Below are positions 9,805 to 13,507 of a stretch of DNA of 64,000 nt, piece by piece. Position 1 is the stretch's first letter. Each line of letters starts with the position of its first letter. The notes below the pieces were generated by a model. The model had not been told where the DNA came from, ran no database searches, and saw only the letters and a program-made list of their open reading frames with translations. Source of the DNA: Dactylosporangium sp. AC04546 (GTDB lineage: Bacteria; Actinomycetota; Actinomycetes; Mycobacteriales; Micromonosporaceae); assembly GCF_022095675.1 (NCBI RefSeq), contig NZ_JAHYSG010000001.1, forward strand, positions 62,001 to 126,000, written 5' to 3'. A program made the translations under genes and the position numbers.

Positions 9805-10551
9805 TCACCTCGACTGGCGGGTCAGCAGGCAGTCCCGCAGGCGCAGCAGGTCCGCGCTCGGGTCCACGCCCAACTCGTCGGCGAGATGGCGGTGCAGTCG
9901 CCGGTACGCCGTGTATGCGTCGACCTGGCGCCCGCTGCGGTGCAGCGCGAGGATCAGCTGGCCGTGCAGCCGTTCGCGGGCCGGGAACTCGGCGCAGAGT
10001 TGCAGCAGGTCGCCGACGATCTGCTTGTGCCGGCCCGTGCGCAGCTCCAGGTCGAAGCACTCCTCGGACGCGCTGAGCTGGAGCTCGGCTAGCCACGCCG
10101 TGCTCGCGGCGACGCTCTGGCTGTCGAGGTCCTCGAGGACCGGCCCGCGCCACATCGCGAGCGCGACCCGGTAGTGGACGGTCGCCTCCTCCGCACGGCC
10201 GGCGGTGGTCGCCAGGCGGGCCGTGTTGACCCGTTCGACGAAGACGCGGGCATCGAGCTCGTCGTGGCCGATGCTGAGCTGGTATCCGCCCGGGCGGGTC
10301 TCGAGGATCTCCGGCCGCGCGCCGGCGCGCAGAAATCGGCGACGCAGCCCGGCGACGCAGTTCTGCACCTGCTTGCGTGCCGTGGCTGGAGGGTTGGCGT
10401 CCCATACCGCGCCGACGAGGCGGTCGAGGGAGCTGCGGCCCCCGGCGGCGAGGAGCAGTGCAGCGAGAATCTTGCGTTCCCTGGTGCCTGGCACGTTGAT
10501 GCGCCGACCCGAGGCGGAGACCTCGAGCGGGCCGAGGATGGCGAATTTCAC
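9805..10551 (-). CDS. SARP-family transcriptional activator (DNA-binding plus BTAD)
   Basis: A 248-residue protein from GTG 10551, chosen because GGAGGAGAAGG lies just upstream. Residues about 1-90 are an OmpR-like winged helix (VKFAILGPLEVSASGRRINV, then RLVGAVWDANPPATARKQVQ) and residues 95-245 form the bacterial transcriptional activation domain ending YRRLHRHLADELGVDPSADL. It is the short SARP form without an ATPase domain. SARPs activate antibiotic and peptide clusters by binding heptameric direct repeats; such repeats are present in the promoter of the divergent gene at 10747. It is therefore the likely activator of the disulfide-peptide operon. Confidence 0.93.
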   Translation of the reverse strand: MKFAILGPLEVSASGRRINVPGTRERKILAALLLAAGGRSSLDRLVGAVWDANPPATARKQVQNCVAGLRRRFLRAGARPEILETRPGGYQLSIGHDELDARVFVERVNTARLATTAGRAEEATVHYRVALAMWRGPVLEDLDSQSVAASTAWLAELQLSASEECFDLELRTGRHKQIVGDLLQLCAEFPARERLHGQLILALHRSGRQVDAYTAYRRLHRHLADELGVDPSADLLRLRDCLLTRQSR

Positions 10552-10673
10552 GAACCTTCTCCTCCGGCCACGGAGGCGCCGATCGAGCCCCCGCTCGACC
10601 CCCGTGACACCCTCAATCATCGATCGTGCTGGATCACGGCCGGGACGTCAACGTTCCGCGGCGAGGAGAAGAC

Positions 10674-10716
10674 GATGACAGTGTGATGACAACGTGGTGA
10701 CGCTTCGATTCATGAT
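10674..10716 (+). promoter_or_regulatory. SARP-type promoter: three heptamer direct repeats and a -10 box
   Basis: Three heptamers lie head to tail with 4-bp spacers, giving an exact 11-bp period: GATGACA (10674-10680), GATGACA (10685-10691) and GGTGACG (10696-10702). Exactly 8 bp further is a -10-like CATGAT (10711-10716). This is the established SARP promoter design, in which the activator occupies one helix face next to RNA polymerase. The ribosome binding site GGAAGG (10733-10738) and the ATG at 10747 follow at suitable distances. Confidence 0.75.
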
Positions 10717-10746
10717 GGTCACCACACCTGCCGGAAGGGCCGACCT

Positions 10747-11298
10747 ATGGCGTTGTCGTCGCACGAAGTCCTGCTCCTGGCCGTCAACAGTGTGGTCGCG
10801 GCCAGCCTGGTGCACGCGGGGCTGAGCAAGCTCGCCGTGCCTGGGCCGCTGCGGCAGGCGCTCGCCGAGCTGCGGGTCCCGGCGCCGGCCACGACGGTGA
10901 CCGCAGTCCGAGCGTACGCCGTCGCCGAGTGCCTCGCAGGGTTGGCGCTCCTCGCCGACCCCACCCGGGCGGCCGGCGGTGTGCTCGTCGCGATCGTGGG
11001 CCTCGCGGTCGCCGCACTCGGTGTCCTCGGGACCGTCCGCGGCAGCGTCACCCCGTGCGGCTGCTTCGGCAACCGTGACAGCCGGCCGCTCGGGCTCACG
11101 AACGTCGCGATCGGCCTCGGGTTCGCCGTCGCCGGCGCGCTGAGCCTGGCCGGCGGCGCGGCGGGCCTGACGCCCGGGGCCCCCGTCGGCGCGCCCGCCC
11201 TGCTCGGCGGCGCGGGCGCGATGCTCCTGCTCTGCCTGTACGTCAGCCGCGGCTGGGCCCGGCCGCTCATCCGTCCACGGAGGGGAACGTCACTGTGA
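10747..11298 (+). CDS. MauE/DoxX-like redox membrane protein
   Basis: A 183-residue membrane protein with four or five predicted spans (for example ASLVHAGLSKLA, GVLVAIVGLAVAALGVLGTV, GLGFAVAGALSLAGG). A CxC pair lies in the loop TPCGCFG (Cys104, Cys106), as in MauE proteins that pass reducing or oxidising equivalents to periplasmic thiol proteins during methylamine dehydrogenase maturation. First gene of an operon activated from SARP repeats; its TGA overlaps the GTG of the next gene. No methylamine dehydrogenase subunits are encoded nearby, so the client is probably the Cys-rich protein at 11840. Family is well supported; the client is inference. Confidence 0.85.
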   Translation: MALSSHEVLLLAVNSVVAASLVHAGLSKLAVPGPLRQALAELRVPAPATTVTAVRAYAVAECLAGLALLADPTRAAGGVLVAIVGLAVAALGVLGTVRGSVTPCGCFGNRDSRPLGLTNVAIGLGFAVAGALSLAGGAAGLTPGAPVGAPALLGGAGAMLLLCLYVSRGWARPLIRPRRGTSL

Positions 11299-11843
11299 TC
11301 CTGTTCCTGAGCATCGTCGTGTTCCTGCTCGCGGCCGCCGTCGTCGTGGTGTTCGCGATGCTCGGCGAGCTGGCGTCCCGGGTGCCGGCGCCGGACGACG
11401 ACGGCCGTCGCCGCATCGAGTCGATCGACACCGCCAATACCGGGCACCGCCCCTCGTACTGGCCGGCCGGTCTTACCCACGTGGCCGACCAGGAGTACGC
11501 GCTCGTGTTGGTGCTCAGCTCGACCTGCTCCAGCTGCGAGACGATCGCCGGCCAGGTGAGCAAGATGCTCGACCGCGGACCGGCGAACCTCGCCGTGATC
11601 GTCGCCTGCCCCGCCCGGGAGCGTGGCGAGCACTTCGCCGCTGTGCACGGCATCGATCGCCACGACGCTTTGTTCATCGACGAGGACGGCGTGTGGGTGA
11701 AGGGCGAGTTCGCCGTCGACACGAGCCCCGCAGCGCTGCTGTTCCGCAACGGGACCCTGCAGTCGGCGCTGTTGTTCTGGGATCTGCCCGCCGTGCTGAA
11801 CGCGGTGGGTTCGTTGAGTACCGCCGATCGGGAGGTGGCATGA
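11295..11843 (+). CDS. Membrane-anchored thioredoxin-like protein (MauD/TlpA-like)
   Basis: A 182-residue protein with one N-terminal signal-anchor (LFLSIVVFLLAAAVVVVFAM) and an extracytoplasmic thioredoxin-like domain. The redox motif is CSSC (Cys78, Cys81) in LVLVLSSTCSSCETIAG; the following strand NLAVIVACPAR and the late VDTSPAALLF (a TSP-type cis-proline position) fit the fold. It should catalyse disulfide formation or isomerisation outside the membrane, working with the MauE-like protein. The GTG start overlaps the upstream stop (GTGA), and its own stop overlaps the ATG of the next gene (ATGA): three translationally coupled genes. Confidence 0.82.
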   Translation: MILFLSIVVFLLAAAVVVVFAMLGELASRVPAPDDDGRRRIESIDTANTGHRPSYWPAGLTHVADQEYALVLVLSSTCSSCETIAGQVSKMLDRGPANLAVIVACPARERGEHFAAVHGIDRHDALFIDEDGVWVKGEFAVDTSPAALLFRNGTLQSALLFWDLPAVLNAVGSLSTADREVA

Positions 11844-12160
11844 AACAGACCGTCATGAAGATGCGGACCGGACGCCGCAAGGTGCTCGCGGGCGTTGGGG
11901 CCAGCGGGCTCGCGGCCGCTGCCGCGGTCTTCGGCAGCAGTACGCCGGCGCACGCGGCGAACTGGGCGTGCTGCACGCTCGTGTTCGTCCCGCCGAACGT
12001 CTCGTACTCGAGCTGCACCGCCGGGGCGCACTACGTGTGGCAGTGCACGTTCGGCACGGTCGGTCCGGTGTACCGGTACAACTGCTGCGAGAAGAAGAAC
12101 TCGAGCGGCACGATCATCGGATCGGCCACGAAGTACACCTGTATCTCCAACTGCGGGTGA
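11840..12160 (+). CDS. Tat-exported small protein with eight cysteines
   Basis: A 106-residue precursor from ATG 11840 (GGAGG 5 bases upstream). Residues 1-39 form a twin-arginine signal (TGRRKVLAGVG, then an Ala-rich hydrophobic stretch) with a likely cleavage site AHA-A after residue 39. The 67-residue mature part has eight cysteines: 44, 45, 59, 69, 82, 83, 101 and 105, including two CC pairs, enough for four disulfides. It follows a MauE-like and a CSSC thioredoxin-like gene with an ATGA overlap. In this it echoes the disulfide-rich light chain of methylamine dehydrogenase, but it is shorter and I see no convincing homology. Probably an exported, disulfide-stabilised peptide of unknown activity. 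Confidence 0.8.
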   Translation: MKQTVMKMRTGRRKVLAGVGASGLAAAAAVFGSSTPAHAANWACCTLVFVPPNVSYSSCTAGAHYVWQCTFGTVGPVYRYNCCEKKNSSGTIIGSATKYTCISNCG

Positions 12161-12163
12161 CCT

Positions 12164-12226
12164 GTGAGCACTGCGGTCATAGCGTTCGCGCTGCTCGGCG
12201 CGATCCTGCAGATGCAGAGTCCTTGA
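12164..12226 (+). CDS. Possible 20-residue hydrophobic peptide
   Basis: GTG 12164 to TGA 12226 encodes a short peptide with the hydrophobic core AVIAFALLGAILQMQ. It lies 3 nt after the stop of the Cys-rich protein, and its stop region (TGAGG) forms the ribosome binding site for the next gene. It has no strong ribosome binding site of its own. It may be a leader that couples translation or a small membrane peptide; it may equally be chance. Confidence 0.3.
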   Translation: MSTAVIAFALLGAILQMQSP

Positions 12227-12235
12227 GGCACGTCG

Positions 12236-12814
12236 ATGGCCGGGGTCGCCGGCCCGATGTTGCGGCATGACCGGGCCGGTGCGGTCCGCTTCATGCTGGG
12301 CCTGCTCGTCGGTGGGCTCGTCGGCTCGCTCGTGCTGGCGGTCCCGGTGTACCTGCTCGGCAGGCTCTTCGAGGAACTGCTGTCCGGACCGGTGCGCGCG
12401 GTGGTCTTCGTCGTGGTCGTCCTGACGTTCGGAGTGGTGGATCTGACGTTGCGGACACCGCACGTACAGCGACAGGTGCCGCAGTCGCTCGTGCGGACCA
12501 TGCCGCCCGGCGTGCTCGGGCTGGTGTGGGGCGTCGACCTCGCGATGCTGTTCACGACGCAGAAGACGACCTCGTTCGTCTGGGTCGCCCTCGCCGGTCT
12601 CGTCCTGGTGGCCCCGGGTCTCGCGCCCGTGGTCCTGGTCCTGGCGTGGACGGCGGCGTGGCTCGCGATGGCGTACCTGACGATCCGTAGACCGACCCTG
12701 TCCTCGATCGGTGAGGAGCGACTGCCATGGGAGAAGCTGGTCAGCATCATCCGACGGGTGTCCGGCACCGCACTGATCGGCGCGGCGCTGGTGAGCGGCT
12801 GGCTGATGATCTGA
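12236..12814 (+). CDS. Integral membrane protein of the SARP-controlled operon
   Basis: A 192-residue polytopic membrane protein with four or five spans (MLGLLVGGLVGSLVLAVPVY, VRAVVFVVVVLTFGVVDLTL, WVALAGLVLVAPGLAPVVLV, then a C-terminal VSGTALIGAALVSGWLMI). The ATG at 12236 has GAGG 7 bases upstream. No cysteine pair or known transporter motif is evident and no family is recognised. Position in the operon suggests a part in export, processing or self-protection linked to the Cys-rich protein. Confidence 0.7.
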   Translation: MAGVAGPMLRHDRAGAVRFMLGLLVGGLVGSLVLAVPVYLLGRLFEELLSGPVRAVVFVVVVLTFGVVDLTLRTPHVQRQVPQSLVRTMPPGVLGLVWGVDLAMLFTTQKTTSFVWVALAGLVLVAPGLAPVVLVLAWTAAWLAMAYLTIRRPTLSSIGEERLPWEKLVSIIRRVSGTALIGAALVSGWLMI

Positions 12815-12825
12815 CGGCCGGCCGT

Positions 12826-13206
12826 GTGCTGCATGCCGAACCGGACAGCGGACAGGTGGTCATCACCCGCTTCGAGTGTCCAAACCTCGCCGTTCTGGCG
12901 TACCTGCTGGTGCTGCACGTTCGCATCAAGCGGGCCGTCCACCGCCACGCGCCGGCGCTCATCGCCGCGCGCGTGGTCGTGCAGTGGCGGCGGCGCACCA
13001 TGCTCAGCATCTCGCTCTGGCCGGACCTGGACAGCATCTTCGCGATGGGTTCGGTCCGGCGGCACGTCATCGGCTCACGGGTCCCGGGCCGGCTCGGCGT
13101 ACGCACCAGCAGCGGGATCTTCACGTTCACCGGCGACTGGCGGAGGGTCATGTTCGGCTCGCCGAGCGCCCCGCACGATCCGCTGCAGCCGTTGAATCCG
13201 ACCTGA
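12826..13206 (+). CDS. Small soluble protein, unknown, possibly dimeric alpha/beta-barrel-like
   Basis: About 126 residues from GTG 12826, 11 nt after the membrane protein stop; the start is uncertain because no good ribosome binding site is visible. The protein is basic in the middle (HVRIKRAVHRHAPALIAARV) and has a patterned end (RRTMLSISLWPDLDSIFAMG, then HVIGSRVPGRLGVRTSSGIF). The LSISLWPDLDSIFAM stretch recalls antibiotic-biosynthesis-monooxygenase-like folds, in which a SLW strand precedes a helix, but this is weak. It belongs to the operon by spacing and orientation. Confidence 0.55.
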   Translation: MLHAEPDSGQVVITRFECPNLAVLAYLLVLHVRIKRAVHRHAPALIAARVVVQWRRRTMLSISLWPDLDSIFAMGSVRRHVIGSRVPGRLGVRTSSGIFTFTGDWRRVMFGSPSAPHDPLQPLNPT

Positions 13207-13228
13207 AAGCCTGCTCGGAAGGAGCGTC

Positions 13229-13507
13229 ATGGCAATACCCACCGATCGCGGCCACGTGATCCTCACGAAGGACGCCGCCGGCGCGACCACCGTCATGGTG
13301 GGCACGTCGCTGACGGACGGCGCCGTGCAGAACGTCTACGCCAGCCACGTCGGCGTCGGCAACCTCAAGGTGCACCCTGGCGTGCGCCTCGCCGCCGGCA
13401 AGCACGGCCAGCACAGCCTTGACGTGGTCGAGGTGTTCGTCGGTTCGGACGACAGCGTGCACATCCGGCGTACCGAGGCGAGCGACGACCTGCGCGCCAA
13501 CGGCTGA
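13229..13507 (+). CDS. Small hypothetical protein, last gene of the SARP operon
   Basis: A 92-residue soluble protein with a strong ribosome binding site (GGAAGGAG) before ATG 13229. It is beta-rich and polar (GHVILTKDAAGATTVMVGTS, then VEVFVGSDDSVHIRRTEASD), with no cysteine, signal peptide or membrane span. No family recognised. It is followed 40 bp later by a strong bidirectional terminator, which marks the end of the operon. Confidence 0.6.
   Translation: MAIPTDRGHVILTKDAAGATTVMVGTSLTDGAVQNVYASHVGVGNLKVHPGVRLAAGKHGQHSLDVVEVFVGSDDSVHIRRTEASDDLRANG

Follow-up and report, generated by a model that had tools for sequence, protein, structure and literature searches.

A Mau-type thiol-disulfide gene module with a probable selenoprotein beside a secreted cysteine-rich protein in Dactylosporangium sp. 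AC04546

Genes and features of the locus

The 64,000-nucleotide stretch of the Dactylosporangium sp. AC04546 genome analyzed here (the window) carries, between positions 9805 and 13507, a set of Mau-type thiol-disulfide genes, one of which probably encodes a selenoprotein. The set begins on the forward strand with a homologue of the membrane protein MauE (10747..11298; PF07291, E 3.6e-15), whose cysteine motif CGC lies in the sequence TPCGCFG. It is followed by a MauD-like, membrane-anchored thioredoxin-like protein with a CSSC motif (11295..11843, forward strand; no Pfam match), and by a twin-arginine (Tat)-type exported protein of 106 amino acids (11840..12160, forward strand), recognized through its homologues and its paired cysteines and proposed below as the substrate of the set. 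All eight cysteines of this protein fall within residues 40-106, that is, within a mature part of about 67 amino acids. Overlaps of 4 nt (11295-11298 and 11840-11843) link these first three genes. The fourth gene (12164..12814, forward strand) starts with GTG and, on the evidence of its conserved frame and its homology, would encode a MauF homologue of 216 amino acids. Its residue 21 corresponds to an in-frame TGA (12224..12226, forward strand), a probable selenocysteine (Sec) codon, and a 6-bp hairpin with a GGUCG loop, conserved in its pairing among close relatives, lies just downstream (12238..12254, forward strand) as a candidate selenocysteine insertion sequence (SECIS) element.

A SARP-type regulator with winged-helix and BTAD domains precedes the module on the reverse strand (9805..10620; PF03704, E 1.4e-39; PF00486, Trans_reg_C, E 1.4e-6); its start is probably the GTG at 10551. 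Two conserved open reading frames (ORFs) without a Pfam or NCBIfam family complete the region on the forward strand: one of 159 amino acids as called (12727..13206), the start of which may lie inside, at GTG 12856, and one of 92 amino acids (13229..13507). A profile search of the neighbourhoods found both in loci of the window's own group (group 1) only. In two relatives, an ORF that by eye resembles a ROK-type regulator follows the operon (L004 9915-12702, L007 9908-11086), together in L004 with a likely ABC sugar-transport ATPase.

The coordinates and gene content given for this region in a preliminary description hold, including the three overlapping genes, and Pfam supports its SARP and MauE assignments. 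It had also reported a plain membrane protein gene at 12236-12814; a membrane gene is indeed present, but this ORF is only the part of 12164-12814 that follows the TGA. Its statement that mau structural genes are missing agrees with our searches, as Pfam and NCBIfam recognize none within the stretch. A whole-genome search for the methylamine dehydrogenase heavy chain gave no match, but the control in the same search was silent as well, so that this negative carries no weight.

An in-frame TGA codon that is most likely selenocysteine

In the window and four relatives, the coding stretch is conserved from GTG 12164 up to an SP-TGA-G-x-S motif and continues in frame into the membrane protein. A family search of 300 genomes retrieved this membrane protein from 20 genomes and 22 loci, and TGA occupies the site in 22 of 22. 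Six of these loci, 25-29% identical to the window protein, form a second group (group 2), in which GQSF or GVSF comes after the TGA. A profile search extended to 396 genomes of the phylum gave matches in 19, of which 16 loci were readable once the own genome, a locus masked over the site (L055) and an ordinary CcdA (L065) had been set aside. Fourteen of these have TGA, and two (L053, L058) have the cysteine codon TGC, reading WSP-C-G. The total thus amounts to 37 distinct loci with TGA and two with TGC; neither TAA nor TAG occurs at the site. All 37 keep the reading frame and the motif P-TGA-G-x-[S/A]. The 37 are made up of the 22 family loci, the locus of Micromonospora qiuiae (L004) and the 14 phylum loci; L054 is counted as TGA although it was length-filtered out of one codon tally, and L005, L006 and L007, identical to L024, L028 and L026, are counted once.

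The codons on both sides of the TGA evolve like coding sequence. Before it, the ratio of nonsynonymous to synonymous polymorphism (pN/pS) is 0.64 in group 1 and 0.23 in group 2, the other two frames giving 1.0-2.6, and for the three codons that follow the TGA the ratio is 0.48 and 0.00, respectively; these values come from 15 group-1 and 5 group-2 loci (L084 omitted), include close relatives such as L006 and L007, and are uncorrected for relatedness. This bears on the possibility that the TGA is a real stop, ending a hydrophobic leader peptide of 20 residues, with a separate 192-amino-acid membrane protein coupled to it at TGAGG...ATG. Such an arrangement would fit group 1, where an ATG lies exactly 9 nt past the TGA and GAGG could act as a ribosome-binding site, as well as the public protein clusters, which are annotated in the short form (54 of 55 at 184-198 amino acids, one at 152), lengths that correspond to a start after the TGA. 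It would also fit one group-2 locus, L041, which has a GTG at codon +2. However, the codons between TGA and ATG are among those evolving as coding, and in the five other group-2 loci no start-type codon is available until +12 (GTG, four loci) or +7 (ATG, one locus), past the conserved GQSFIG. Moreover, the two TGC homologues read straight through the site, matching MauF and DsbD in that helix, and both come from genomes without SelA. We therefore give the leader-peptide arrangement very little credence.

The distribution of the selenocysteine machinery points to the same residue. In the phylum set, SelA occurs in 14 of 14 TGA genomes and in neither of the two TGC genomes, against a base rate of 230/396 (Fisher p 2.4e-4, own genome included, phylogeny uncorrected). 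Among the family genomes, it is present in 19 of 20 carriers versus 210/300 overall (p 0.006, likewise uncorrected). For genomes other than the own one, this survey covers SelA among the selenocysteine genes, and it takes in the carriers apart from the L004 genome. The genome of Dactylosporangium sp. AC04546 itself encodes a tRNA-Sec with anticodon TCA, SelA, SelB (above the cut-off) and SelD, and the set includes six further Dactylosporangium genomes, of which four have SelA.

The hairpin begins eleven nucleotides after the TGA and is fully paired in all 16 group-1 sequences, to which its analysis was confined (96/96 cells). Two of its pairs show compensatory changes on both sides: one is C-G in 11 sequences and U-A in 5, the other C-G in 14, U-A in 1 and U-G in 1. 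Its fold energy is unexceptional compared with shuffled sequences and its columns are also coding, so that it supports the selenocysteine assignment without deciding it, and we regard it as a candidate SECIS element.

Several of these observations weigh against a selenoprotein or against the wider module proposed below. TGA is the commonest stop codon in such genomes, and in group 1 TGAGG could double as the ribosome-binding site of ATG 12236. The SelA co-occurrence tests ignore phylogeny, and one TGA carrier (G025) is an exception, its 80%-complete assembly having only a piece of SelA where a contig ends. The own selenocysteine genes sit on contigs other than that of the module, in an assembly of 348 contigs listed at 11.5% contamination, and are thus possibly foreign. 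The hairpin has the unexceptional energy and overlap with coding sequence already mentioned, and the assignment of selenocysteine is read from nucleotide sequence rather than from the protein. The CSSC protein of the window resembles MauD weakly (8%, E 0.004, CxxC aligned), and the exported peptide is proposed as substrate from its neighbourhood alone. Taken together, the TGA/TGC pattern, the conservation of frame and motif, the coding-type evolution on both sides, the presence of selenocysteine genes and the split in SelA nevertheless suggest that the TGA at 12224 most likely encodes selenocysteine.

The membrane protein is related to MauF

In a profile-profile comparison (hhalign), the family matches MauF with 99.5% probability and an E-value of 4.1e-22 over 179 columns, with a cysteine of MauF aligned to the selenocysteine; the window protein alone still gives E 4.2e-8. 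MauF proteins from fetched mau clusters (plasmid records) carry the sequence STWSPCGYSS, and the selenocysteine falls on the cysteine of their WSPCG. The family also matches DsbD_TM (16 sequences; profile E 5.4e-11), the SPC cysteine of the first helix again aligning with the selenocysteine. PF13386 matches 3 of 14 relatives (best 1.5e-10), the window protein itself being unmatched. By these comparisons the membrane protein is a homologue of MauF, of the DsbD/CcdA kind but closer to MauF.

The window protein has no cysteine besides residue 21, and in the family alignment the selenocysteine site is the only conserved cysteine-type column, whereas the DsbD_TM set has two invariant cysteines. A two-cysteine electron carrier of the DsbD/CcdA type, with its cysteines in helices 1 and 4, was considered and rejected on the ground of this single conserved Sec/Cys. 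At four loci (L071 4937-6364, L072 4201-5628, L075 1317-2525, L076 4998-6233) the MauF-like ORF extends past the membrane domain, to about 400-475 codons, although the frame may merely be open there.

A conserved module with an exported cysteine-rich protein

MauE, a MauD-like protein, the selenocysteine-type MauF and an exported cysteine-rich protein recur jointly across the phylum. Among 36 loci, 35 have a MauE-type gene with CxC, 35 have a thioredoxin-like gene and 34 have both, as judged by neighbourhood profiles that were iterated on the same loci, themselves chosen for carrying the MauF-like gene; the locus without MauE (L074) is a 4-kb contig. The thioredoxin-like protein of L077 is plainly MauD (E 8.3e-26), and the iterated profile ties the CSSC protein of the window to proteins such as this one. 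In the two TGC loci, MauE and thioredoxin lie within one ORF. Micromonospora lupini and Plantactinospora soyae are among the soil actinomycetes with the operon. The module is rearranged or duplicated in some genomes, with a second CSSC match in L089 and L090 and two matches to the eight-cysteine protein in L091 and L096. Beside the group-2 module of L083 (G148:C71), roughly 1.2-4.1 kb past the TGA on the minus strand, ORFs resemble by eye LanC and a lantibiotic dehydratase.

The 106-amino-acid peptide, which belongs to no Pfam family, has 29 relatives. The cysteine-rich ORF stays beside MauE and its eight cysteines are all retained in 12 of 12 close homologues, so that the conserved synteny and conserved cysteines anticipated in the preliminary description are both found; free variation of the cysteines is not seen, and the protein was not matched to any known enzyme subunit. 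In the wider set (n=30), positions 80/99 and 101/105 carry cysteine only pairwise: window-type peptides have 101 and 105, a distant type has 80 and 99, and three sequences have both pairs. Being gained and lost together, these cysteines behave like disulfide partners. The number of cysteines is even in 27 of the 30 sequences, a count that retains P0015, P0028 and P0029 (3, 5 and 11 cysteines), of which P0015 and P0028 look frame-shifted.

We also considered whether this peptide is MauA, the light chain of methylamine dehydrogenase. Profile comparison of the window peptide family with MauA gave a match confined to the twin-arginine leader stretch (2%), and the mature domain has no detectable homology, so that the peptide is not recognizable as MauA. 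The exported proteins of group 2 likewise match MauA in the leader only, and their link to the window peptide family is moderate (88%, E 3e-6). Those of group 3 have a MauA-type leader (hhalign E 9e-9) and a mature part without match; TIGR02659 is found in 7 of 8 of them, at best with E 7e-6, far under the family cut-off.

Sequences of the exported proteins differ strongly between groups, the CC pairs could bind metal, and a fold search with the peptide gave no match, all of which would suit a MauF-type selenoprotein that serves general envelope redox balance, the peptide being either a metal binder or a bystander under the same regulation. We consider this unlikely, as a Tat-type cysteine-rich ORF adjoins the module in group 1, group 2 and many phylum loci, the cysteines of the pairs 80/99 and 101/105 appear and disappear jointly, the group-3 proteins carry the leader just described, and mau genes are known to mature a disulfide-rich subunit. 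We propose that the 67-residue eight-cysteine protein is the substrate of the module.

The preliminary description had pictured a dedicated oxidative-folding set switched on by the SARP regulator. The first part is borne out in that Mau-type thiol-disulfide genes are conserved jointly with an exported protein in which cysteines vary in the manner of disulfide pairs; a third Mau-type component, the MauF homologue with its probable selenocysteine, had been missed. A SARP gene is not general among the relatives: our own SARP profile detects one upstream of the module in L094 and L004-L007 as well as in the window, at a greater distance upstream in L085, and downstream in L093, and no match was obtained in the remaining loci examined, most of them with about 5 kb on either side.

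Proposed mechanism

Building on the gene structure, conservation, homology, selenocysteine machinery and Sec/Cys exchange seen in the sequences, we infer that selenocysteine is inserted in vivo, and we consider it very probable that the locus encodes an envelope thiol-disulfide module of Mau type, with a selenoprotein among its parts, and that this module matures a secreted cysteine-rich protein. The MauF homologue would be made by decoding UGA 12224 as selenocysteine, a step for which the downstream hairpin probably provides the signal. Together with MauE (CGC) and the MauD-like CSSC thioredoxin, it would act outside the cytoplasm on the Tat-exported protein. The selenocysteine would lie where the first membrane helix ends, in the position of the SPC cysteine of MauF and DsbD/CcdA. 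Since the family has no second conserved cysteine, it probably pairs with the CGC of MauE and/or with the CSSC protein, and exchange with them would create disulfides in the substrate or rearrange existing ones, whichever way the electrons flow.

A more specific version, which we hold to be about evenly balanced between right and wrong, is a selenium-dependent transmembrane disulfide relay. Here the selenocysteine of MauF and the CGC of MauE would jointly provide the pair of redox centres that a single DsbD/CcdA chain contains, passing oxidizing or isomerizing equivalents to the MauD-like thioredoxin, which would mature a family of exported cysteine-rich proteins, apart from methylamine use and across the phylum.

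Relation to known systems and implications

The disulfide-rich light chain of methylamine dehydrogenase requires MauE and MauD. The mau operons in records of Paracoccus, Methylobacterium and Indioceanicola resemble the locus in combining MauF, MauE and a MauD-like protein with a Tat-exported cysteine-rich protein. They differ from it in gene order (mauF-B-E-D-A versus E, D-like, substrate, F here), in the WSPCG cysteine of MauF that selenocysteine would replace here, in the mature exported protein, which is not detectably MauA here, and in mauB and mauG, not recognized beside the module. To DsbD/CcdA the MauF-like protein is akin in fold and in its first-helix motif, but not in the second conserved cysteine. 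With known prokaryotic selenoproteins it shares an in-frame UGA, a downstream hairpin that here is a candidate SECIS element, selenocysteine genes in the genome and cysteine homologues.

NCBIfam selenoprotein models gave no credible match to the MauF-like protein. Table 1 of a 2026 inventory (PMC13188914) has 119 prokaryotic selenoprotein families or subfamilies; neither a MauF nor a CcdA-only family is among them, and by name TsoB, a rhodanese/DsbD fusion, comes closest. We found no description of a MauF or CcdA selenoprotein in the open-licence literature of PubMed Central, subscription papers and preprints being outside the scope of this search, and term searches of PMC12013277 and PMC9312934 gave no match. 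What appears to be new is therefore a selenoprotein inside a known maturation module, of a family that we did not find described before.

Ordinary annotation hides such a gene by cutting it at the UGA, and public records carry the shortened form. The reading proposed here gives the membrane gene an identity and would add a new family of membrane selenoproteins. The poorly understood MauF/MauE/MauD machinery would also gain a setting that is apparently free of methylamine dehydrogenase and offers a protein of 67 residues on which its function could be studied, and the exchange between selenocysteine and cysteine marks the residue that probably performs the chemistry.

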